Part shown: positions 6,362-31,377 of the stretch, one piece after another
How the letters are laid out: the number at the start of each line of letters is the position of its first letter
Numbering within the stretch: the stretch's first letter is position 1
From: a virus
IMG/VR virus record: IMGVR_UViG_3300005915_000067
Span: 1-31,463 of that record
Reading direction: 5' to 3' (one strand)
DNA: 31,463 bases
Notes under the pieces: model-generated
Databases searched by the model: none
Told to the model about the DNA's origin: nothing
What the model saw: only the letters and a program-made list of their open reading frames with translations
Translations under genes and position numbers: made by a program

Positions 6362-7195
6362 CTAAATAGAACTCGATGGCGTCTGAACGCCACAGCCAGG
6401 ATATGGATTCGTTGGGATGTCCCACGATCTAGTCGTAGTCGCACCCATCTCATCCTCGAATGTTGCAGTGATGATCGTGTCTGTACGCTCACGGCTTCCT
6501 GTCGGCCACTTGAGCCCACACGTACCGCCGCCAGGGTATCCTTCAACGCCCCAGTCAGGCGGCGAGTATGGAAGCAGTGTCGTGTTTGTCTCAACAGGTC
6601 CGAACCACATACTGAAGAACATGAACGCATTCTGAGCAAGCGCCCCGTTAGGCATACGAACATGGTATTCATCGATGCCTGGAGGATTCGTGCCAGTGAA
6701 TGGCGGACAGAAGACGGTGTTATCCTCATAACCAAAGTACTGCACCCGTGCGTCAATCAGCTTGACGGGACCGCCTTCAAGGTCAGAAGCATAAGGGAAC
6801 GTCACGATGTATTGCTTCCTTGGATGAATCGTCCAAAGGTTCGTAATCGCATTGAGAACTGGGCGCCCGATAACCGGACCCACATTCCTCAGCCAGATCG
6901 TTTCCGTTGCCGTCTGAGAATCGCTTCCGTTAATCCACACAACCGACACCTCAAGTGGCAGCGTGTTGACAGTGACGACTAGGATGTTGTTCGTCTGCTG
7001 GTACGTGTTGCCTTCAACTGAGAACGTGTATTGCCCGCCTTCTACACCACGCGCGATCAACGTCACCTCACATGGAGGATAAGCGGAATCAGGAACGGAC
7101 AGAGTGAGTGTTCCGATAATGTCGCCGCCGATGAGACAACCACCTAGTAAGCTAAGCGACAAGACCATAAGCATCAAAAGCAGTTTGCGTTTCAT
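6362..7195 (-). CDS. Phage-encoded lipoprotein
   Basis: 277 residues. The N-terminus MKRKLLLMLMVLSLSLLGGC is a lipoprotein signal peptide with the lipobox LGGC and Cys20 as the predicted lipidated residue. The mature part is beta-rich: a repeat-like immunoglobulin or PKD-type stretch (EVTLIARGVEGGQYTFSVEGN, LPLEVSVVWING), then an aromatic central part with several cysteines (CPPFTG, GGTCGLKWP), ending GATTTRSWDIPTNPYPGCG. The product should be exported and anchored in a host membrane. Phage lipoproteins can alter the surface or block superinfection, but nothing here proves that. The start has GAGAGGAGAGAG upstream. It lies among exported and membrane proteins after the tail-fibre genes. Confidence 0.8.
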   Translation of the reverse strand: MKRKLLLMLMVLSLSLLGGCLIGGDIIGTLTLSVPDSAYPPCEVTLIARGVEGGQYTFSVEGNTYQQTNNILVVTVNTLPLEVSVVWINGSDSQTATETIWLRNVGPVIGRPVLNAITNLWTIHPRKQYIVTFPYASDLEGGPVKLIDARVQYFGYEDNTVFCPPFTGTNPPGIDEYHVRMPNGALAQNAFMFFSMWFGPVETNTTLLPYSPPDWGVEGYPGGGTCGLKWPTGSRERTDTIITATFEDEMGATTTRSWDIPTNPYPGCGVQTPSSSI

Positions 7196-7285: not shown

Positions 7286-7816
7286 TTACAGATTGATGTC
7301 GAAGTCGACGCGCAGACCGAAGAATGGTTGAATCCCAAAGCTGCCGGCCCCTGTTGAGTCGTAAGGCAGATTCATGCCAGCCCACACCTCAAGAGGTCCA
7401 ACATATCCAAGAGCCTTGAAACTCGGAATCAGAGTGAGGAGATTGATCTTGGTCGGATACGCAACCGTGTAGGTAATGTCGCAGGCGGCTGTGAAGTTGC
7501 ATCCATAGTAGAGAGTGCCGTCCGTGTCAACCGAAACCAGTTGATCAAAGCCGATGTTGGATTCAACTCCAAAGGCACGATCATTCGTCTTACTAAGCAA
7601 GTCCGCGTCCGCATAAGCGAAACCCAGATCGATGAACCACGAATGAGAAATCCACCCCTCAAGAGTAACTCCCGCATCCAGAGTGGGCGACAATACAGCG
7701 CCACCTACAATCGGAGGAACGTTCACCTCGAACCACGGATTGATAGTCGGAGTGGCAAAAGCCACTACCCCCAAAGCAAATACGCAAATCAATGATAGAA
7801 CTAGTGCTCGTTTCAT
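7286..7816 (-). CDS. Exported protein, possible small outer-membrane beta-barrel
   Basis: 176 residues starting MKRALVLSL, with AAGGAGGG upstream; the longer frame to 7873 overlaps the previous gene and lacks a ribosome site. Residues 1-21 form a signal peptide ending VAFA. The mature chain has alternating hydrophobic and aromatic strands separated by turns (GWISHSWFIDLGFAYADADLL, LEVWAGMNLPY, FGIQPFFGLRVDFDINL), resembling a small outer-membrane barrel. The last residue is Leu rather than the usual Phe or Trp. It may modify the infected cell's surface, or it could be a periplasmic beta protein. It overlaps no neighbour and lies after a holin candidate. Confidence 0.7.
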   Translation of the reverse strand: MKRALVLSLICVFALGVVAFATPTINPWFEVNVPPIVGGAVLSPTLDAGVTLEGWISHSWFIDLGFAYADADLLSKTNDRAFGVESNIGFDQLVSVDTDGTLYYGCNFTAACDITYTVAYPTKINLLTLIPSFKALGYVGPLEVWAGMNLPYDSTGAGSFGIQPFFGLRVDFDINL

Positions 7817-7817
7817 G

Positions 7818-8087
7818 CTATCCCTCCTTGTGAGTAAACTCGCCGATGAGATTCTTGAATGCGACAAAACCATTAATCATCCCAGTCGCACCCTTGACCA
7901 TCATCGACACAATCGATTCTCTAAATCCGAGGCCCAGCATTCCTTCTTCCAATGCTGCAAGAACGGCCTTCAGCTTCTCTTCTCCAAACCCAGGCGTCTC
8001 GAATTGCTTCACCAACGCAGTGATGAATGCAATCGCAACCGGAATGGCTGCAAGGACTTCCGGGATATAACTAAGCCACTTCAACAT
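7818..8087 (-). CDS. Small membrane protein, holin candidate
   Basis: 89 residues starting MLKWLSYIPEVLAAIP; TGGAGG precedes this ATG, which I prefer to the in-frame ATG seven codons upstream. One hydrophobic segment (residues ~8-25, VLAAIPVAIAFITALV) is followed by FETPGFGEEKLKAVLAALEEG, a pattern seen in some small phage holin-like proteins. A second, weaker hydrophobic stretch comes later. Location after the tail fibres fits a lysis cassette. The holin assignment is tentative. Confidence 0.6.
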   Translation of the reverse strand: MLKWLSYIPEVLAAIPVAIAFITALVKQFETPGFGEEKLKAVLAALEEGMLGLGFRESIVSMMVKGATGMINGFVAFKNLIGEFTHKEG

Positions 8088-9198: not shown

Positions 9199-9618
9199 TT
9201 ACCACTCGTGCCGGATAAAGAACTCCGGCTGGAATACATAATGTCCAAGACGATTAGTGCATAACTGATTGAATACGGATATTCCGGCCCACCACTCGCT
9301 CGCAATCATGAGTTGTAATCGTGGTCGCAGTTTTAGGACGTAGAAAGTGAAGCCTCTCAAAGACCTTGGCGTAATGAATGTGAACTGCCCGGCCTCCCAC
9401 TCTAAGGATAGCTCTATGCCGTCATAGATCTCTTCATGGACTCCTCGGGCTCCAAAGTACGGTAGTGGCCCTGTTAGTTGATAGATAGAGTTATAGGAAC
9501 CGCGAGCACCAAAGTATTGAATCCGCGCATCAGGTTGAAAGAATATGGTTACATTGTTTGCACACACCCCAACGCTGAGCAAGATAATTATTGCTGCTGC
9601 GATCAGTCGTGTTTTCAT
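9199..9618 (-). CDS. Exported protein with a duplicated YFGARG motif
   Basis: 139 residues starting MKTRLIAAAIIILLSVGVCA, a signal peptide with cleavage expected after Ala20. AAGGAGGCACG precedes this ATG; the longer frame to 9654 lacks a ribosome site. Two near-copies of a 19-residue unit follow, each containing YFGARG (residues 35-40 and 54-59). The remainder is beta-rich and aromatic (IELSLEWEAGQFTFITP, LQLMIASEWWAGISVF) and ends RHEW. An outer-membrane or periplasmic location is likely. No family is recognised. Confidence 0.7.
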   Translation of the reverse strand: MKTRLIAAAIIILLSVGVCANNVTIFFQPDARIQYFGARGSYNSIYQLTGPLPYFGARGVHEEIYDGIELSLEWEAGQFTFITPRSLRGFTFYVLKLRPRLQLMIASEWWAGISVFNQLCTNRLGHYVFQPEFFIRHEW

Positions 9619-9655
9619 TTCGTGCCTCCTTGTTTCACGGCATATTATAACCATT

Positions 9656-23903: not shown

Positions 23904-24287
23904 CTAGCTGACTGGAAGGCTTGGGGAATCCCAACCGACACCGGCGCAACCCATCAAACAGTCCTTTGCGTTGGTAACGGTGTACTGAATTCTCCAATAC
24001 CGCTCCATGTTGATGACCTCTTGAGTCACGGTCACATTTGCAGAGTCTTGATCAAACGCCAACGCGGAATCGATTGCATCCTCCCACGTTGAGTTGTCAT
24101 CAGACTTCTGCACCATAACCGAGACATCAGTTGCCGCGTCAATGGCTCCAAGCGTGAACAGAACAACGCCAGTACGACAGCGTTTCATATCCACACCGGT
24201 TCCATTGACTTCCGATCCGCTACCCGCAATCGTCTGCGCAGGAAGCAAGATTCCATCATGTGCGAAATCGTCAAAGTTTCGTCTCAT
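23904..24287 (-). CDS. Small virion protein after the capsid gene
   Basis: 127 residues directly downstream of the capsid gene. A beta-sandwich pattern is suggested by VVLFTLGAIDAATDVSVMVQ, SDDNSTWEDAI and MERYWRIQYTVTNAKD. Proteins of this kind near capsid genes are often head decoration or accessory proteins, but I cannot assign a family. AGGAGGTAACA precedes the ATG. Confidence 0.65.
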   Translation of the reverse strand: MRRNFDDFAHDGILLPAQTIAGSGSEVNGTGVDMKRCRTGVVLFTLGAIDAATDVSVMVQKSDDNSTWEDAIDSALAFDQDSANVTVTQEVINMERYWRIQYTVTNAKDCLMGCAGVGWDSPSLPVS

Positions 24288-24296
24288 TGTTACCTC

Positions 24297-25526
24297 CTAG
24301 GTAGTCACGCCGGAAACGATGTAGAACTCTTCCGGCTGTTTCGGAATGCCGTCAACGTAATGGACCGCACGAATGAGCATCTGGTCAGAGCTAAACTTCT
24401 CATGCTCCGACACGCGAATCTCAATCGCCCCAGCTTCACCGATTGCATATGCAGGCCAGTTCCCAAGGATCATGTACGAAGCATCAGAGCTACCGCCCTG
24501 AGTTTGCGCGATAGAAATCTTCGAGGAGACTTCAACATCATTCCCAAAGATCGGCTTGCCAGGAATACCGCCCTGAATCGAGCCATCGAAGTACAGCGGC
24601 CGACCGTTACCGTCCGTCAGCGTTCGAACCGTATTGCGCGTTCGAGGGTGCATGGCGAAACCGGTATACGTACCATCGTTGAGTTCGATCTGATACATCA
24701 TCTGGGTGAAGTCCGTCCAGATAGGCGCTCGCCCGTCTGTGCCCATCAGAGTCGTGTTGTTCGTCACGCCTGCCTGAGACAGCAAACCAAGCGGCTGCAC
24801 GCCACCCGTTCCCTGTAAGAAGGCGAGGTCTTCGGCAAGAGCCAACTGCTTCATCAGATCTTGTCGAACGATGGTCTCAATGGAAGGCTTAGCAAACTTG
24901 ATCAGCCGTTCGTGAACTGGCACAAGCCCAATGCACTCGCGTAGATCGAGATAGATCATCTGGAAGGTTGGTTCACTTTCCGTCTTGTCCGTGGACTGAT
25001 CAAGCCAGTACGCGGTCGCCCCAGATAGCATGCGAGTGATCCCTAGCTTCTCGCCATTATCCATCTGGTAAACCGTGGCCCCAAGATTCCTCACAACCGT
25101 ATTCGCGTACAACTGAGGAATCAGCTCAGGCGAAAGGATATCTTGAACGAGGAAACCACCCGCAGAGTCGTCTTCGGTATTAAGGGCTTTCGTCTCGACA
25201 AGCACCTCTTTCTCGAAACCTGCATCTCTCCAGTTCCTTCGCCAACACGCCTGAAGCGCTTTGGCGAACTTGAAGTTCTTGACATCGTCTCGCTGGATAC
25301 CCTGCGGACGAATGGCCGAGGCTGTGCGGAACGCGCCTTTATCGGCATCCGTTTCCGTCGCTTTGGAATCATCGACCGTCTCAATCTTCGTTGGATCTTT
25401 CACAGAGAGCTGGTACGTGACACCTTCAACCTCGATGGTGTCAGGCGCTTTGTCACCCTCCTTGACCTTTTTGAGCGCGGCATCAACTAACTTTTTGCGC
25501 TGCTCATCTGTTAAGGTTTTGTCCAT
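24297..25526 (-). CDS. Major capsid protein (HK97 fold)
   Basis: 409 residues. The first ~110 are charged and helical (DEQRKKLVDAALKKVKEGDK), consistent with a scaffold-like delta domain that the S78 protease would remove. From ~113 the HK97 core follows: SAGGFLVQDILSPELIPQL, VRNLGATVYQMDNGEKLGI, a P-domain EDLAFLQGTGGVQPLGLL, then ILGNWPAYAIGEAGAIEI and VHYVDGIPKQPEEFYIV at the end. AGGAGGTGACC precedes the start. It lies directly after the protease gene. Confidence 0.92.
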   Translation of the reverse strand: MDKTLTDEQRKKLVDAALKKVKEGDKAPDTIEVEGVTYQLSVKDPTKIETVDDSKATETDADKGAFRTASAIRPQGIQRDDVKNFKFAKALQACWRRNWRDAGFEKEVLVETKALNTEDDSAGGFLVQDILSPELIPQLYANTVVRNLGATVYQMDNGEKLGITRMLSGATAYWLDQSTDKTESEPTFQMIYLDLRECIGLVPVHERLIKFAKPSIETIVRQDLMKQLALAEDLAFLQGTGGVQPLGLLSQAGVTNNTTLMGTDGRAPIWTDFTQMMYQIELNDGTYTGFAMHPRTRNTVRTLTDGNGRPLYFDGSIQGGIPGKPIFGNDVEVSSKISIAQTQGGSSDASYMILGNWPAYAIGEAGAIEIRVSEHEKFSSDQMLIRAVHYVDGIPKQPEEFYIVSGVTT

Positions 25527-25539
25527 AACAGGTCACCTC

Positions 25540-26883
25540 CTATTGGTGAACTACAATGTGTGATGCCAGAATCGACACCACGTCTTCCAATTCCTCGGCC
25601 TGTTGTTGCACGGCTTCCATGCTGGAGGTGATGAGCAAGCGCACCAGGAACGTGAACTCCCTTTTGCTCAGGGTTCCCGCAGACCACGCCGAACACAGGT
25701 GCTCGAGGTTTTCCGTCCAATCTTCATTCACCATCAGTTCTGCATACTGTTCGGGGAACAGAATGAACAGTTCTTCAGGTGAGTAATCTTTCCATTCGGG
25801 AATATCTCCCTCTTCGAGCTTCGAAAGTGCATCGGCAGCGAGTTTATAGGCCTCTTCAGAGGCGTCTTGCCCTCTCGCGCCTAAGGAACACGCCAGCGCC
25901 GCTCTGAGCGACTCTACGGTGGTTTCCTCAGCGTCCGTATCCTTGGCAGGCTGTTCGTCTTCAGCTGGCACAGAGGCCTGAATGTCGGCATCGTTTTCGA
26001 CCGGTTCGACGTTTTCCACGTCAGGGGTCTTCACTTCGATAGAAAGGGTAACTTCAGCCTTTCCGATTGACGTAGATTCTTCGTTTTCCACAGGAACCTC
26101 CTTGATCGCCACTGATTGATCCGGTGCGGCAAGGGATCGGATGTCGAACGAGCCAGCTTCACCATCTCCACCGATAGCCACTTGTTTCGGGAGGAATAGA
26201 TCTCGATTCTTCTCAATCATTTCCTTGACCAATGGCGACGGGCCTTCCATCACGACCTCGGCATAACCTTTCAAGAATGACTTGATGCCATCCGTTCGCA
26301 TTGCCTCACGATTCGCAGGAATGACAACCGGGCTATGTTCGAGAATTTCCCACTCGATGAACTTCCATCCAGGGATGTCGTCAGGCGAGCTCCATTCGTT
26401 GATGATGAATCCGATCGACGTACAGTTGAGGGCATGCGCTTCCCACAGTCGTTGATAGACAGCGCCTTGCGTATCGGGTAGGTCAGAAGTCCATTCCCAC
26501 TTTGCCCACACACGCGAGTCAGTAGAGACGATCGCCTGATCGAATCCAACAGGGAATGAGTGCATGTGGCTAGGAAGGACTACGGGATTCTTCATGAAGT
26601 TCTCAGTCACGATCATGCCGCCAGACTCAATTACGTCACCATCACGATCTACCTCAGCAGACGAGATCACAGACTGAGCGGTCGGGCGCCCTGGATGCAA
26701 GAAGTCGCCAGTGAATTCGATTCGCTTACCACCCTGAAGAGCGGCTTCGCGTTCGTAGACTCCAAACTTGTAGAGGGCTTCCACCGTTCCCTCTTTCAGC
26801 GCATGCTCAAGCGCCTCACGAGACAAGACCAAATGCTTGCTCTCGCCTACGATCTGAACTTCGGTCACGCCCATCGGCTTCAT
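25540..26883 (-). CDS. HK97-type prohead protease (S78) with long C-terminal extension
   Basis: 447 residues; AAGGGGGGAAG precedes the ATG. Residues ~70-215 are the protease: AEVDRDGDVIESGGM, PVVLPSHMHSFPVGF with the likely catalytic His, and ALNCTSIGFII with the likely Ser, then EILEHSPVVIPANREAM. The remaining ~230 residues are acidic and helical and could act as internal scaffold. Usual S78 proteases are about 200 residues, so the tail is an extension. The start overlaps the small zinc-ribbon gene (ATGA). Confidence 0.88.
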   Translation of the reverse strand: MKPMGVTEVQIVGESKHLVLSREALEHALKEGTVEALYKFGVYEREAALQGGKRIEFTGDFLHPGRPTAQSVISSAEVDRDGDVIESGGMIVTENFMKNPVVLPSHMHSFPVGFDQAIVSTDSRVWAKWEWTSDLPDTQGAVYQRLWEAHALNCTSIGFIINEWSSPDDIPGWKFIEWEILEHSPVVIPANREAMRTDGIKSFLKGYAEVVMEGPSPLVKEMIEKNRDLFLPKQVAIGGDGEAGSFDIRSLAAPDQSVAIKEVPVENEESTSIGKAEVTLSIEVKTPDVENVEPVENDADIQASVPAEDEQPAKDTDAEETTVESLRAALACSLGARGQDASEEAYKLAADALSKLEEGDIPEWKDYSPEELFILFPEQYAELMVNEDWTENLEHLCSAWSAGTLSKREFTFLVRLLITSSMEAVQQQAEELEDVVSILASHIVVHQ

Positions 26884-26999
26884 CTTCCCCCCTTCGTTAC
26901 GATCTTCTTTCCCTTACGCTCCATGCGCCGGCCACACTGAGGGCAACGCGTGACGTGAGCGGCGACTACCGTCTGACACTTCGGGCATATTCGTTTCAT
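26880..26999 (-). CDS. 39-residue zinc-ribbon protein
   Basis: The frame encodes MKRICPKCQTVV, then TRCPQCGRRMERKGKK: two CPxC knuckles 14 residues apart on a basic background. Its stop overlaps the protease start by 4 bases, and it begins two bases after the previous stop (TGACATG), so it depends on coupling rather than its own ribosome site. A single-ribbon protein of this size could bind nucleic acid or a protein partner. Confidence 0.7.
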   Translation of the reverse strand: MKRICPKCQTVVAAHVTRCPQCGRRMERKGKKIVTKGGR

Positions 27000-27000
27000 G

Positions 27001-27123
27001 TCACAGTTTCGCCCCGCACATCCTGCATACTTTCGCTCCCGGCTTATTGACCGCAGTACACATCCTGCAAGTCTTAGCCTTCGGTGCTTCTGTCTCTTTC
27101 GGTGCTTCTGTCTTCTTGGGCAT
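27001..27123 (-). CDS. 40-residue zinc-ribbon protein
   Basis: Starts MPKKTEAPKETEAPKAK, a duplicated TEAPK element, then CRMCTAVNKPGAKVCRMCG: two CRMC pairs with short spacing. A GGAGTGGGAG ribosome site precedes the ATG. It lies between the surface-type repeat protein and the second ribbon gene. Function is unknown. Confidence 0.7.
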   Translation of the reverse strand: MPKKTEAPKETEAPKAKTCRMCTAVNKPGAKVCRMCGAKL

Positions 27124-27141: not shown

Positions 27142-27159
27142 GAGGGGCCGAAGCCCCTC
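27142..27159 (-). other. Hairpin with UUCG tetraloop after the 669-residue gene
   Basis: A seven-pair stem (GAGGGGC / GCCCCTC) closes a TTCG loop on the minus strand, 10 bases after the upstream stop codon. No U-tract follows and a Shine-Dalgarno sequence comes next, so RNA stabilisation or processing is more likely than full termination. Confidence 0.6.
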
Positions 27160-27169
27160 TCGGAGTTCA

Positions 27170-29179
27170 CTATTCGATGACGTACGTGATGATGACGTCT
27201 ATGCCAGTAGCCGTATCAGCATCGCCGCCAGTCTTGCTAATGGTAATCGCGGTAGCCGCATCGCATACAGCGAACGAAGCCCCATCAGCTAGGACCGCCG
27301 CGCCAGCATCTCCAGCATTAAGAACTGTTGATTGTGTCAGACTCGCCTGAGCATATGCCACGAGCTTCACGGACCCTGCCGCTTGCGTTCCAAGGATATC
27401 TACCGTTGTCGTTGTTCCAACTGCGCCGCCATAGGCAATCGCAGTGACAGACACAATACGATAGGCCCGTCCTGTGATTGCAGGCAACAGCTCATGCCCT
27501 GCGTTGATCTCAGCGACGGTGACTCGGTGCCGATCATTCAACACCGTAGACTGAGCGTAGCTCGTGATAGGAGCTTGAGCGTTCCAGAATCCATCAGTTG
27601 CGTTGTCTAACGTCTCTCCATTCTGGCCTTGAACTTCTCTAGTAATCGATCCAGACGTTGCAGTGAACAGTAGACCAATAGGAAGGACAGCCGAATCGGT
27701 AGTCTGAACTCGAATAGCTGCTGCCGTATTGTTGTTCCCTACATTCGCACCGAATCCGTAATCGCAGTATCCAGAGCCGCCCATGTCCGCTACGACAGCA
27801 TACTGGTCTCCTGCAAGGTCAATGGTATTTGGTCGCATCGTGAAGTAGCCAGCAGCTACATTCCTGTTGGAAGTTCCGCTACCAGACGATGTGATGCTAC
27901 CGTAGACACCATACCCGCCGCCCGTGGCGTCGAGTGTCGCTGCTCCAGTTACTTCAAACTGACCCATTACGCCGATGAACTGATTCCCTTCAATCGTGTC
28001 TGAAATTAATGTTCGTCCACGAGTTGCATAGGCATCAGTAGTATCATGCGCGATCGTCAGCTTGGTATAGTCGCCCATCCAGATGCCATGCTGAATAGAT
28101 GTCCCAGGACCAGCACCCGATGTGCCTAAAGTCTGATATGTACCCATAACGTACTTATCTACCACACTCATCTGAGCTGATACATCAACGCGCTTGACTA
28201 TAACGCTGTCTGCGACAGATCCGAATGCGATAGTAGCATCGCCGCCGATATTGATAGCACCATCAGACATTCCTAGCTTCCACGTGTCTCCAATGTGGAG
28301 GCCAGAGCCTACCTGTGCTGCAGAGATGCTGATGGCGTGAGTAGTATTTGCGCCTGAGATCTCAAGGCCAATAGTAGAAACGCTGCTGAGAGTAAGAGGA
28401 GCAACCAAATCCAATGAGTCAGCCGTCCATGTAACCGCAGGTGCACTACCAGTATGTGTAATCGCAGTGATACCAGTTGTCACCGTAGTGGCGATCTGCA
28501 TGTACTCAGTGGCGTTCAAACCCATACGGTTTGCCGGCGACTCGTGACTCGTGAATCCGGCACTGACCTCACGGGTAGACGTACTCCCATCAACGAGTGC
28601 AGTCGTGCCATCTACCGAGAGGTTGCCAACAGCCGTGATCGCATCAAGGGCAATCGGGCCTGCAAAGTCGAATCCGTCCGCTGTCCAGGTAACTACAGGA
28701 GCAGAGCCGGTGTGAGTGATTGCTGTGATACCTGTCGTCGCTGTGGTAGCAATCGACATGTATACAGCCGCGTCTGATCCGAATCGATTCGCAGGCGATT
28801 CAAGGCTTACGAACCCCGCACTAATGCCGCGGACTGATGTACTGCCATCCAAGATAATCAGAGTTCCATCTACCGAGAGATTGCCCGTGATCGTTATGGC
28901 ACCAGTAAACCCGACAATACCTGCCAGGTCGATGTACGTCTCTGCAATCGCCAATCGGTCTTCGTCGGTTGCGTTATCTAGTACAGCGCCACCAACGAGG
29001 TCGATAATCCCTGTACTCTCAATTCCGAAGATGACGGTATTGTGTGAATCCGTGAAGTACCGCCCTCCGGCGTAATCCGTTCTGTCCAGCGCAGCCTGCG
29101 CGCTACCAGCAAATAGGAATGCGAACACACCCAAGATAAGCAGCGTTGCAAGTACTGGACCCAATCGATTTCTTTTCAT
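27170..29179 (-). CDS. Signal-peptide-bearing repeat protein inside the head gene cluster
   Basis: 669 residues, beginning with a Sec signal peptide (MKRNRLGP, hydrophobic ~8-24, then SAQA with cleavage near residue 29). The mature chain is Thr/Ala/Gly-rich and beta-predicted throughout, resembling fibre or surface proteins. Residues 100-185 and 186-271 are two copies of an 86-residue unit (NLSVDGT ... DGSTS ... SPANR ... ITAITHTGSAP). The C-terminal part has YRIVSVTAIAYGGAVG and ISKTGGDADTATGIDV. The start overlaps the portal fusion stop by 4 bases. A signal peptide on a gene between portal and protease is unusual: it may be a secreted surface protein, or a virion fibre. Confidence 0.75.
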   Translation of the reverse strand: MKRNRLGPVLATLLILGVFAFLFAGSAQAALDRTDYAGGRYFTDSHNTVIFGIESTGIIDLVGGAVLDNATDEDRLAIAETYIDLAGIVGFTGAITITGNLSVDGTLIILDGSTSVRGISAGFVSLESPANRFGSDAAVYMSIATTATTGITAITHTGSAPVVTWTADGFDFAGPIALDAITAVGNLSVDGTTALVDGSTSTREVSAGFTSHESPANRMGLNATEYMQIATTVTTGITAITHTGSAPAVTWTADSLDLVAPLTLSSVSTIGLEISGANTTHAISISAAQVGSGLHIGDTWKLGMSDGAINIGGDATIAFGSVADSVIVKRVDVSAQMSVVDKYVMGTYQTLGTSGAGPGTSIQHGIWMGDYTKLTIAHDTTDAYATRGRTLISDTIEGNQFIGVMGQFEVTGAATLDATGGGYGVYGSITSSGSGTSNRNVAAGYFTMRPNTIDLAGDQYAVVADMGGSGYCDYGFGANVGNNNTAAAIRVQTTDSAVLPIGLLFTATSGSITREVQGQNGETLDNATDGFWNAQAPITSYAQSTVLNDRHRVTVAEINAGHELLPAITGRAYRIVSVTAIAYGGAVGTTTTVDILGTQAAGSVKLVAYAQASLTQSTVLNAGDAGAAVLADGASFAVCDAATAITISKTGGDADTATGIDVIITYVIE
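28367..28882. repeat. Two 258-bp coding repeats (86 residues each)
   Basis: Repeat 1 is at 28625-28882 and repeat 2 at 28367-28624. The protein copies match at most positions (GITAITHTGSAP is identical), while the nucleotide copies differ mainly at third codon positions, indicating an old duplication kept by selection. Confidence 0.85.
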
Positions 29180-31377
29180 GACTCCTCCTCCGCTCCCGCG
29201 AGCGTGTAGAAATGATCGAGATACCTTTTCTTCTCGCGCTGGAAGAAGGCCACCAGTGCCGCCATATATCGCGCCCCTGCACCTTCTTCAAGCAGAGCCT
29301 GTTCCCAATCCGTGAAACTCTTTAGCGTGTAGCTCGCTGCCTTGCCTTCGTCGTTCATCGGAACGAGATCGCAATGACAGTTGATGACTTCGACAGCCAA
29401 CCCCGCGCCGTCGCCAGGATGATTCATAGCGTTACCCGTGACGGACATGATGAAGAATGACTCCATCGGGATTCCGTCCACGTACTTAGCGTCGGTTTCG
29501 ATGTGCCAGTCTCGGGGGTTGAGCTGTCCAGGATGTGCCAGCCATCGCTTCTTCGGCACGCCTACGCCTTTGTAGAGATCGAACTGGCCTGTCTCAACCG
29601 CGCCGTGGATCTCAGTCTGTGCGATCGTTCGGCTGCGTGAAATGCTCATATCGTCGAACTGACCCCGAAGCCTTCGAGCGATGGCCTCGACCCCTTCACC
29701 CTCTCTCATTCCCGAGCTGATGGTGTTGGAGATTAGCTTCCGTGTCTCTGTGTCGATGCTGTTGACAATTCCTCTCCCGACGTTATGCCCAAGGCGTTCA
29801 TTCACATAGGAATCTATTGACCGCTGGAAGTTGTACCGGCCAATCCACTCCTCGGGCACTTCAAACCCGATCTCCAAAGATAATCCTCTGGCACGCTCTC
29901 CACCCTCTTTCATCAAGTCGGGGATGTTGTTCGTATGCACTGCGCGTTGATCTACCAACGACGCATGAGCATCAGGGAGATACGCGGCAGGATCACCGGC
30001 AAGTGGAACGTCCTTGCCGTATCGCCGACTCCTACCGCGCGCCCTTGTTGAGGAGAGAACCGTGCCGGCTACTTCAGCCGGTCCAGTCATTAGGATGGAA
30101 TTGACAAGCTCTCCAGTCGCTTCAGGCATGTTCAGGAACTCTCGCCGCTCGTTCATTGTGAGTGGTTGCTCTTTCAGGAATCGCGCTACCCGCGCCTTGC
30201 GCTCCATGTCTTCCTGTAGAGCTTCGATGGTGGAGAGATCGAACATCAGCATCACTTTCGGATCGTCCTTCATCAGCCCGTAGTTGATCTTCGATTGGAG
30301 CAACTGAAGGCGAGGCAGGACGGTATTCTCGTAGAAGATCTCCTCTTGGATCTGTGCGACTGCGCGATTCAATCCCTGATCGCGTGCTTGTGCAATCATG
30401 ATAGGGGGCACACCGTACACGGCGAGGATCTCTTCGCGGTTCATCTTGCGAAGCTGTTCAAATGCCATCTCACTGTGCGAGAGCCCTGTCCTTTGATACT
30501 CGAAGCCACTCCCGAGTACGGCAGTCTGGAAAGCTCTGCCCGTCCCTTGATGGCTTTCGTCCCATCGGCGCTTGATTTTCTTGGCAACGGTATCAGTCAC
30601 TACCTTGTCAGTCTTGAGCAAACCCAAGGGCTCCGCTTGATGCTCGAAGAACATGCGGTTGTAATCCTGCGCACGAACGTCACCAATCAGGACGGACCTC
30701 AGCACCTTTGTAGCGCCCAGCCCGAACCAAGGATTCTCAGGATTGAACTCCTCGAAGTGGATGATGTGATTCTTCTTGAGATAGACGACACGCCCGCCGC
30801 CGTAGAATACCCAGCCGTCGATTAGCTTCTCACCGGGGATGGGGAGCATCTGCCGTGGGTCGATCTTCGGCCAAATAGACGTGACTTCTTTCTCACGCTC
30901 TGACGCGAACACTTTCTCCCAGTAGGCATTGCCGTCCAGGTCGATGTAGGCAGAGGTGGCGAAGATCAAATCGTATCGCGTGAGTTCGGCGTCATCGTTC
31001 GGATTGTTGAGCAGGTCAACCATCTTGTGTCCACCGTCGAGGATCTTGCCACCTTCAAACTTCACCCATTCCTCGAAAGCCTCTGCATAGTTGGGGATGC
31101 CGTGCATCGACTTGAAGTCCTGAACCGTTGCTATCTTCGGCCGCTTGTTCGGCATACTGACAGCGATGATAGGAACACGCCCACAAGCCCGGGCGATGGC
31201 TTTGATTGCAGCATTCGCCCACGTGCCTACACGGTATGCGGGAATAAGGTCGGCTGAGTATCGAGGGCGGTTGACAGTCGCGCCTGCGTTCTCTATCACA
31301 GCTGTGATGGTGTCTGGTCTTTCGACGCCTCGTGTAGCAGATCCGAGGCCGCGTTCGAGCATATTCTGAAAGCTCAC
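29176..31377 (-). CDS. Portal protein fused to Mu gpF-like minor head protein
   Basis: 733 residues from a GTG at 31377 (GGGGGAG three bases upstream); an ATG five codons in is the alternative. Residues ~1-440 are an HK97-type portal: WANAAIKAIARACGRVPI near the start, IIHFEEFNPENPWFGLGATKV, and IPPIMIAQ-like GVPPIMIAQARDQGLN. After a linker (~440-500) the Mu F domain follows: SRSRTIAQTEIHGAVETG (~575-592), WLAHPGQLNPRDWH, and VINCHCDLVPM at ~668. Portals form the DNA gate and MuF proteins enter the head or are ejected. Both parts are intact in one frame. Confidence 0.88.
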   Translation of the reverse strand: MSFQNMLERGLGSATRGVERPDTITAVIENAGATVNRPRYSADLIPAYRVGTWANAAIKAIARACGRVPIIAVSMPNKRPKIATVQDFKSMHGIPNYAEAFEEWVKFEGGKILDGGHKMVDLLNNPNDDAELTRYDLIFATSAYIDLDGNAYWEKVFASEREKEVTSIWPKIDPRQMLPIPGEKLIDGWVFYGGGRVVYLKKNHIIHFEEFNPENPWFGLGATKVLRSVLIGDVRAQDYNRMFFEHQAEPLGLLKTDKVVTDTVAKKIKRRWDESHQGTGRAFQTAVLGSGFEYQRTGLSHSEMAFEQLRKMNREEILAVYGVPPIMIAQARDQGLNRAVAQIQEEIFYENTVLPRLQLLQSKINYGLMKDDPKVMLMFDLSTIEALQEDMERKARVARFLKEQPLTMNERREFLNMPEATGELVNSILMTGPAEVAGTVLSSTRARGRSRRYGKDVPLAGDPAAYLPDAHASLVDQRAVHTNNIPDLMKEGGERARGLSLEIGFEVPEEWIGRYNFQRSIDSYVNERLGHNVGRGIVNSIDTETRKLISNTISSGMREGEGVEAIARRLRGQFDDMSISRSRTIAQTEIHGAVETGQFDLYKGVGVPKKRWLAHPGQLNPRDWHIETDAKYVDGIPMESFFIMSVTGNAMNHPGDGAGLAVEVINCHCDLVPMNDEGKAASYTLKSFTDWEQALLEEGAGARYMAALVAFFQREKKRYLDHFYTLAGAEEES

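Follow-up and report, generated by a model that had tools for sequence, protein, structure and literature searches.

A predicted Sec signal peptide on a modular fibre-like protein encoded among phage head genes

Several phage products are exported to the host envelope, including Llp of T5, Cor of phi80, and Lom and Bor of lambda, and these are small lipoproteins or barrels that are encoded outside the head operon and possess no fibre architecture. PblA and PblB of the streptococcal phage SM1 are structural-type proteins that end on the host surface as adhesins; both are tail proteins and carry no signal peptide. Proteins of the head operon are assumed to be cytoplasmic. At the locus described here, a predicted signal-bearing fibre is coupled to the portal gene and belongs to a family with tips in common with capsid cement. 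The question raised is whether some tailed phages decorate their heads or the host surface with fibres that pass through Sec. Precedents for signal peptides in head or virion proteins were sought in the open literature, and none was found. Cement proteins of the GP4 type are described as trimeric, Ig-like in fold, and located at the surface of the capsid (PMC9698820), and gp76 of phiCbK, for which the accessible part of the source reports no signal, is a candidate head filament only (PMC3556154).

Gene neighbourhood and predicted signal peptide

In the window, which is the whole 31,463-nucleotide stretch of DNA that was analysed and comes from an uncultured tailed phage, the genes run in the order portal-MuF, 669-aa gene, two tiny Cys-ribbon ORFs, S78 protease, and major capsid protein (MCP). 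The main features are as follows.

29176-31377, minus strand: portal-MuF fusion, upstream of the 669-aa gene (phrog_2662, 9e-79; phrog_2468, 5e-30)
27170-29179, minus strand: signal-bearing fibre-like protein, 669 aa (ORF, Shine-Dalgarno sequence, homologues in the same position)
29093-29179, minus strand: predicted Sec signal peptide, residues 1-29, MKRNRLGPVLATLLILGVFAFLFAGSAQA (tripartite n-h-c structure; homologues all have one, of different sequence and under the same -3/-1 rule)
28958-29092, minus strand: constant mature N-terminal domain, residues 30-74, ALDRTDYAGGRYF...STGIIDLVGGAVLDN (47-55% identical to same-position homologues, whose tips are unrelated)
28367-28900, minus strand: two 92-residue repeat units, residues 94-185 and 180-271, register 86, 65% identity
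27173-27544, minus strand: C-terminal tip domain, residues 546-669, a predicted jelly roll with cement-protein fold likeness
27142-27159, minus strand: perfect hairpin GAGGGGC-TTCG-GCCCCTC, seen in the sequence 10 nt 3' of the 669-aa stop codon
25540-26883, minus strand: prohead protease, Peptidase_S78 (PF04586 barely over the cut-off; phrog_80)
24297-25526, minus strand: MCP, HK97 type (phrog_10, 1.5e-47)

The start ATG of the 669-aa gene overlaps the portal-MuF stop codon (ATGA) and is preceded by a strong Shine-Dalgarno sequence, GGAGGAGGAG; through this overlap the gene is predicted to be translationally coupled to portal-MuF. A known family for the protein was ruled out, as sequence searches of Pfam, PHROG, NCBIfam, and PDB were all empty, and no relatives of the protein or its tip were found in isolated phages. 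Host assignment from GTDB genomes yielded one MAG contig only (L024), labelled Actinomycetes, which was too weak for use. The two Cys-ribbon ORFs between the gene and the protease overlap each other, are about 40 aa long, and carry paired CxxC motifs (26881-27122, minus strand; MPKKTEAP...CRMC...CRMCGAKL and MKRICPKCQ...CPQCGRRM). The hairpin lacks a clear T-run and is a possible processing or attenuation element.

The translation start of the ORF coincides with the signal, which comprises a KR n-region, a 10-residue h-region with a mean hydropathy of 3.09, and small residues at -3 and -1, giving a predicted cleavage site of AQA/A and a mature start of ALD. The call is based on comparison and on a home-made heuristic that requires a positive n-region, a 10-residue h-region with mean hydropathy of at least 2.2, and agreement with the -3/-1 rule. 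Only 1.7% of shuffles of the mature protein were accepted by this rule, and it was passed by 32/628 genes around related loci, 18 of the 32 being members of this family or of an adjacent decoration-type family. Shine-Dalgarno-like sequences precede the signal starts in relatives. A wrong start or a chance hydrophobic stretch was ruled out by the Shine-Dalgarno sequence, the start-stop overlap, and the homologues. A bacterial lipoprotein was likewise rejected, as there is no Cys near the signal; cysteines occur only at 472 and 639, and a lipobox with Cys at +1 is absent. Judged from its sequence, the hydrophobic N-terminus is a canonical Sec signal and not an accident. The earlier note had described a large ORF between portal and protease with a clear Sec signal and an AQA cleavage site, and both points were borne out by the single 669-aa ORF on the minus strand and its textbook signal.

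Further exported-looking products were noted in the window. These are a probable lipoprotein of 277 aa (6362-7195, minus strand; MKRKLLLMLMVLSLSLLGG/C), a signal-bearing protein with an alternating hydrophobic, outer-membrane-barrel-like C-terminus and no family match (7289-7873, minus strand; MKRALVLSLICVFALGVVAFA/TPT), and a signal-bearing protein that ends in W (9199-9654, minus strand; MKTRLIAAAIIILLSVGVCA/NN). Together with the 669-aa protein, the lipoprotein-like product and the other two signal-bearing late proteins bring the exported-looking proteins of this phage to at least four, so that export through Sec seems to be a normal property of it.

Homologues in the same genomic slot

The MCP, portal, and N-terminal domain served as queries in the search for homologues. 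The arrangement of portal, homologue, S78 protease, and MCP was found in phages with portal identity down to 37% and MCP identity down to 33%. One set of loci (L175, L177-L180, L187) has portals 51-53% and MCPs about 58-61% identical to those of the window, and a more distant set (L209-L213, L217-L220) has portals 37-39% and MCPs 33% identical. All same-position relatives come from metagenomic contigs, some of them fragments. A signal peptide is present in 18/18 viral loci with the N-domain, a partly redundant sample with about eight distinct N-termini, in which the L220 contig begins mid-signal.

Between L175 and the L209/L212 groups, the signals are only 20-30% identical and the next 45 residues are 64-70% identical. 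Across homologues the signals nevertheless keep their length (20-29 residues), charge, hydrophobicity, and -3/-1 residues; as a -3/-1 set, position -3 is always A/G/T and -1 always A/G, and the n-region is net positive with no acidic residue. The mature protein then starts with ALDxxDY or LDxxDY. Such divergence of sequence with retention of signal features is the pattern of a signal peptide selected for function. Because the signal occurs in every positional homologue, real export is favoured, and Sec export of the 669-aa protein is well supported by comparison.

Modular architecture and tip exchange

The two repeat units align with a score of 314 against a shuffle maximum of 54, and residues ~272-545 are non-repetitive. 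The 640 residues of fibre-like beta repeats in the earlier note were therefore an overstatement, as only two 92-aa units repeat, and they are followed by a stretch without repeats and by a distinct domain at the C-terminus. A full-length structure model reached pLDDT 37 and was unusable.

It was noted that close relatives differ sharply in their distal parts. In L213 and L217 the signals are identical and the N-domains match at 96%, but the distal parts are unrelated, and L175 and L177 are 95% and 93% identical in signal and N-domain with unrelated tips. At least four tip types occur on the common stem: the window type, a cement-like type (L177), a phrog_11997 type, and the L217 type. The phrog_11997 type (L212, L213) is also found on a signal-less 201-aa protein of Pseudomonas phage Rollin, and the L217 type, by reading rather than alignment, also ends a signal-less protein in L022/L023. 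These comparisons indicate that close relatives exchange the whole distal part while the N-terminal part stays constant.

The window tip occurs in 76 viral loci and one MAG, mostly on short proteins without a signal, whose N-termini are quite different and soluble. In L071 (6.6e-15) and L057 (9.3e-6) it is fused to Phage_cement_2 (PF09956), and some signal-less carriers match the head-decoration PHROG_122. The tip was modelled by AF2 (pLDDT 93) as a beta jelly roll, and its nearest structural matches are the STIV turret domain and the trimeric cement proteins of KHP40 (VIA Z 8.9) and KHP30 (8.6), followed by those of Pam1 (7.2) and GP4 (6.7), where values of about 7-9 denote a common arrangement and not membership. 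Set beside cement and decoration proteins, it has the jelly-roll or Ig-like beta fold as predicted, shows no significant sequence match to known cement families, and belongs to a protein that is not signal-less and cytoplasmic. The tip tree does not divide cleanly by the presence of a signal: signal-bearing proteins lie in several early branches, and one large clade contains most of those without a signal. As the tip sits on signal-less proteins, some of them fused to capsid-cement domains, the body of the 669-aa protein is, by homology and predicted fold, built of capsid-decoration parts.

Two adjacent signal-bearing decoration-type genes lie directly after the MCP in two other loci (L012:5413-6975, L010:4987-6298). 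The second post-MCP domain, A8, has relatives that include a gene annotated 'cement protein' in phage DSL-LC04, and a signal in 6/62 of them. Homology between A8 and the window tip was unsupported (hhalign probability 0.1). Given signals on A8 and no detectable relationship to the window tip, decoration-type domains appear to have been joined to Sec signals more than once. In L008:4207-6408, a soluble N-terminal domain comes first, then a hydrophobic, signal-like segment within the protein (LVVVLAFVLGGLVLIQRAGA/ADK), and finally a window-type tip, perhaps a decoration gene fused to a signal-bearing one. Signal-bearing proteins were also seen among connector genes (L043:2914-3486) and before terminase genes (L045:129-3313).

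Alternative readings and comparison with known systems

We place a probability of roughly 0.5 on the 669-aa protein being a modular fibre that is exported by Sec and cleaved by signal peptidase, in which the anchor is constant and the tip can be exchanged, and whose site of action is the host envelope or the cell exterior. The fibre would be translated together with the portal protein and made with the head proteins, the host Sec system would carry it across the inner membrane, and signal peptidase would cut at AQA/A. The cleaved protein would start with the constant N-terminal domain (ALDxxDYxGGxYF...TSTGxFDLIGGARFDN), which would serve in anchoring or assembly. A variable number of beta repeats would follow and, at the C-terminus, the interchangeable tip, which in this protein is a predicted jelly roll like that of trimeric capsid cement; the fibre itself may be trimeric. 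Its most likely role would be that of an adhesin or of a protein that covers receptors, active late in infection on the surface of the cell or within the host envelope, with the tip exchanged as the ligand changes. The comparison suggests that the phage sends a capsid-type fibre through the host membrane, an odd property for the product of a head gene. Counted against this reading, the gene is embedded in and apparently coupled to head genes and draws its tips from the capsid-decoration pool, which points to the virion. No tip was found to be shared between the protein and the tail-fibre genes of the window, and this makes a receptor-covering role less likely. We regard as doubtful the wider proposal that these phages export capsid-type fibres via Sec that are attached to virions only at lysis or displayed on the dying host, in parallel in several lineages and with at least two unrelated decoration domains.

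An unlikely alternative is that the processed fibre is stored in the periplasm and joins the finished capsid at lysis, attaching to the virion through its constant N-domain to form a fibre of the head or neck. The location among head genes, the fold likeness of the tip to cement proteins, and its occurrence in Phage_cement_2 fusions and PHROG_122 matches of other phages all fit this, as does the finding that both post-MCP decoration-type genes of L010/L012 bear signals, leaving no obvious cytoplasmic one there. The window, however, has another candidate decoration gene after the MCP (23904-24287), and we know of no phage whose head is decorated after lysis by a periplasmic protein. We consider it quite unlikely that the protein is a cytoplasmic virion component whose hydrophobic N-terminus, instead of being used by Sec, fixes the fibre to the head or the portal. 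Although the coupling to the portal and the capsid-type tips are in keeping with this, the highly diverged signals retain their features ahead of an unchanging mature start, a pattern that suits cleavage by signal peptidase but not an anchor between proteins, and signal-less relatives use quite different N-termini. A purely cytoplasmic virion role is less likely because it leaves the conserved cleavage site unexplained.

Very unlikely, in our assessment, is a moron-like cargo gene for an exported adhesin that is useful mainly to the lysogen or infected cells and unrelated to phage production. Rapid tip swapping agrees with it, as does the finding that more distant phages (L197, L198, L206) lack the homologue between portal and protease, but position and portal coupling are kept over deep divergence, and no promoter-like site was found before the gene by simple consensus. 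A membrane-tethered assembly factor, held uncleaved in the inner membrane beside the portal on the model of the membrane-associated prohead initiation of T4 gp20/gp40, would suit the coupled position directly behind the portal but is highly improbable, as it leaves 280-640 residues of swappable fibre and the good signal peptidase sites of all relatives unexplained.

The earlier note had proposed either a host surface protein or a virion protein with its N-terminus used otherwise, and had named homologues without the hydrophobic N-terminus as evidence against its claim. With signals at 18/18 loci, none was seen for the protein as such and real export is favoured; signal-less homologues exist for single domains, namely the tip, and sequence does not decide between the two proposed roles. 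If the wider proposal of capsid-type fibres exported via Sec is true, this would be a virion-decoration or host-surface-remodelling route so far undescribed for tailed phages. Caution is also advised for annotation pipelines, in which the tip domain by itself leads to such genes being called 'tail fibre' or 'decoration'.

The trimeric cement proteins of KHP30/KHP40, Pam1, and GP4 resemble the window tip in predicted fold and are likewise late head-module products. They are single domains of ~110-160 aa with no signal, whereas the window tip is a domain of 124 aa at the end of a signal-bearing protein of 669 aa. The Phage_cement_2 proteins of L071 and L057 have a C-terminal domain homologous to the window tip, and carry an N-terminal cement domain where the window protein has its signal, anchor, and repeats. 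The post-MCP signal-bearing decoration-type proteins (L010/L012, L029, L005/L007/L021) have in common with the window protein a Sec signal together with beta repeats and/or the same tip, but differ in position and mature N-terminus, and their combination of signal and decoration probably had a separate origin. Like PblA and PblB, the window protein would be a structural-type phage protein at the host surface, and it differs from them in its signal and in not being of tail origin. Like Llp, Cor, Lom, and Bor, it is predicted to be a phage product exported to the host envelope, and unlike them it has a fibre-like architecture and is encoded within the head operon.
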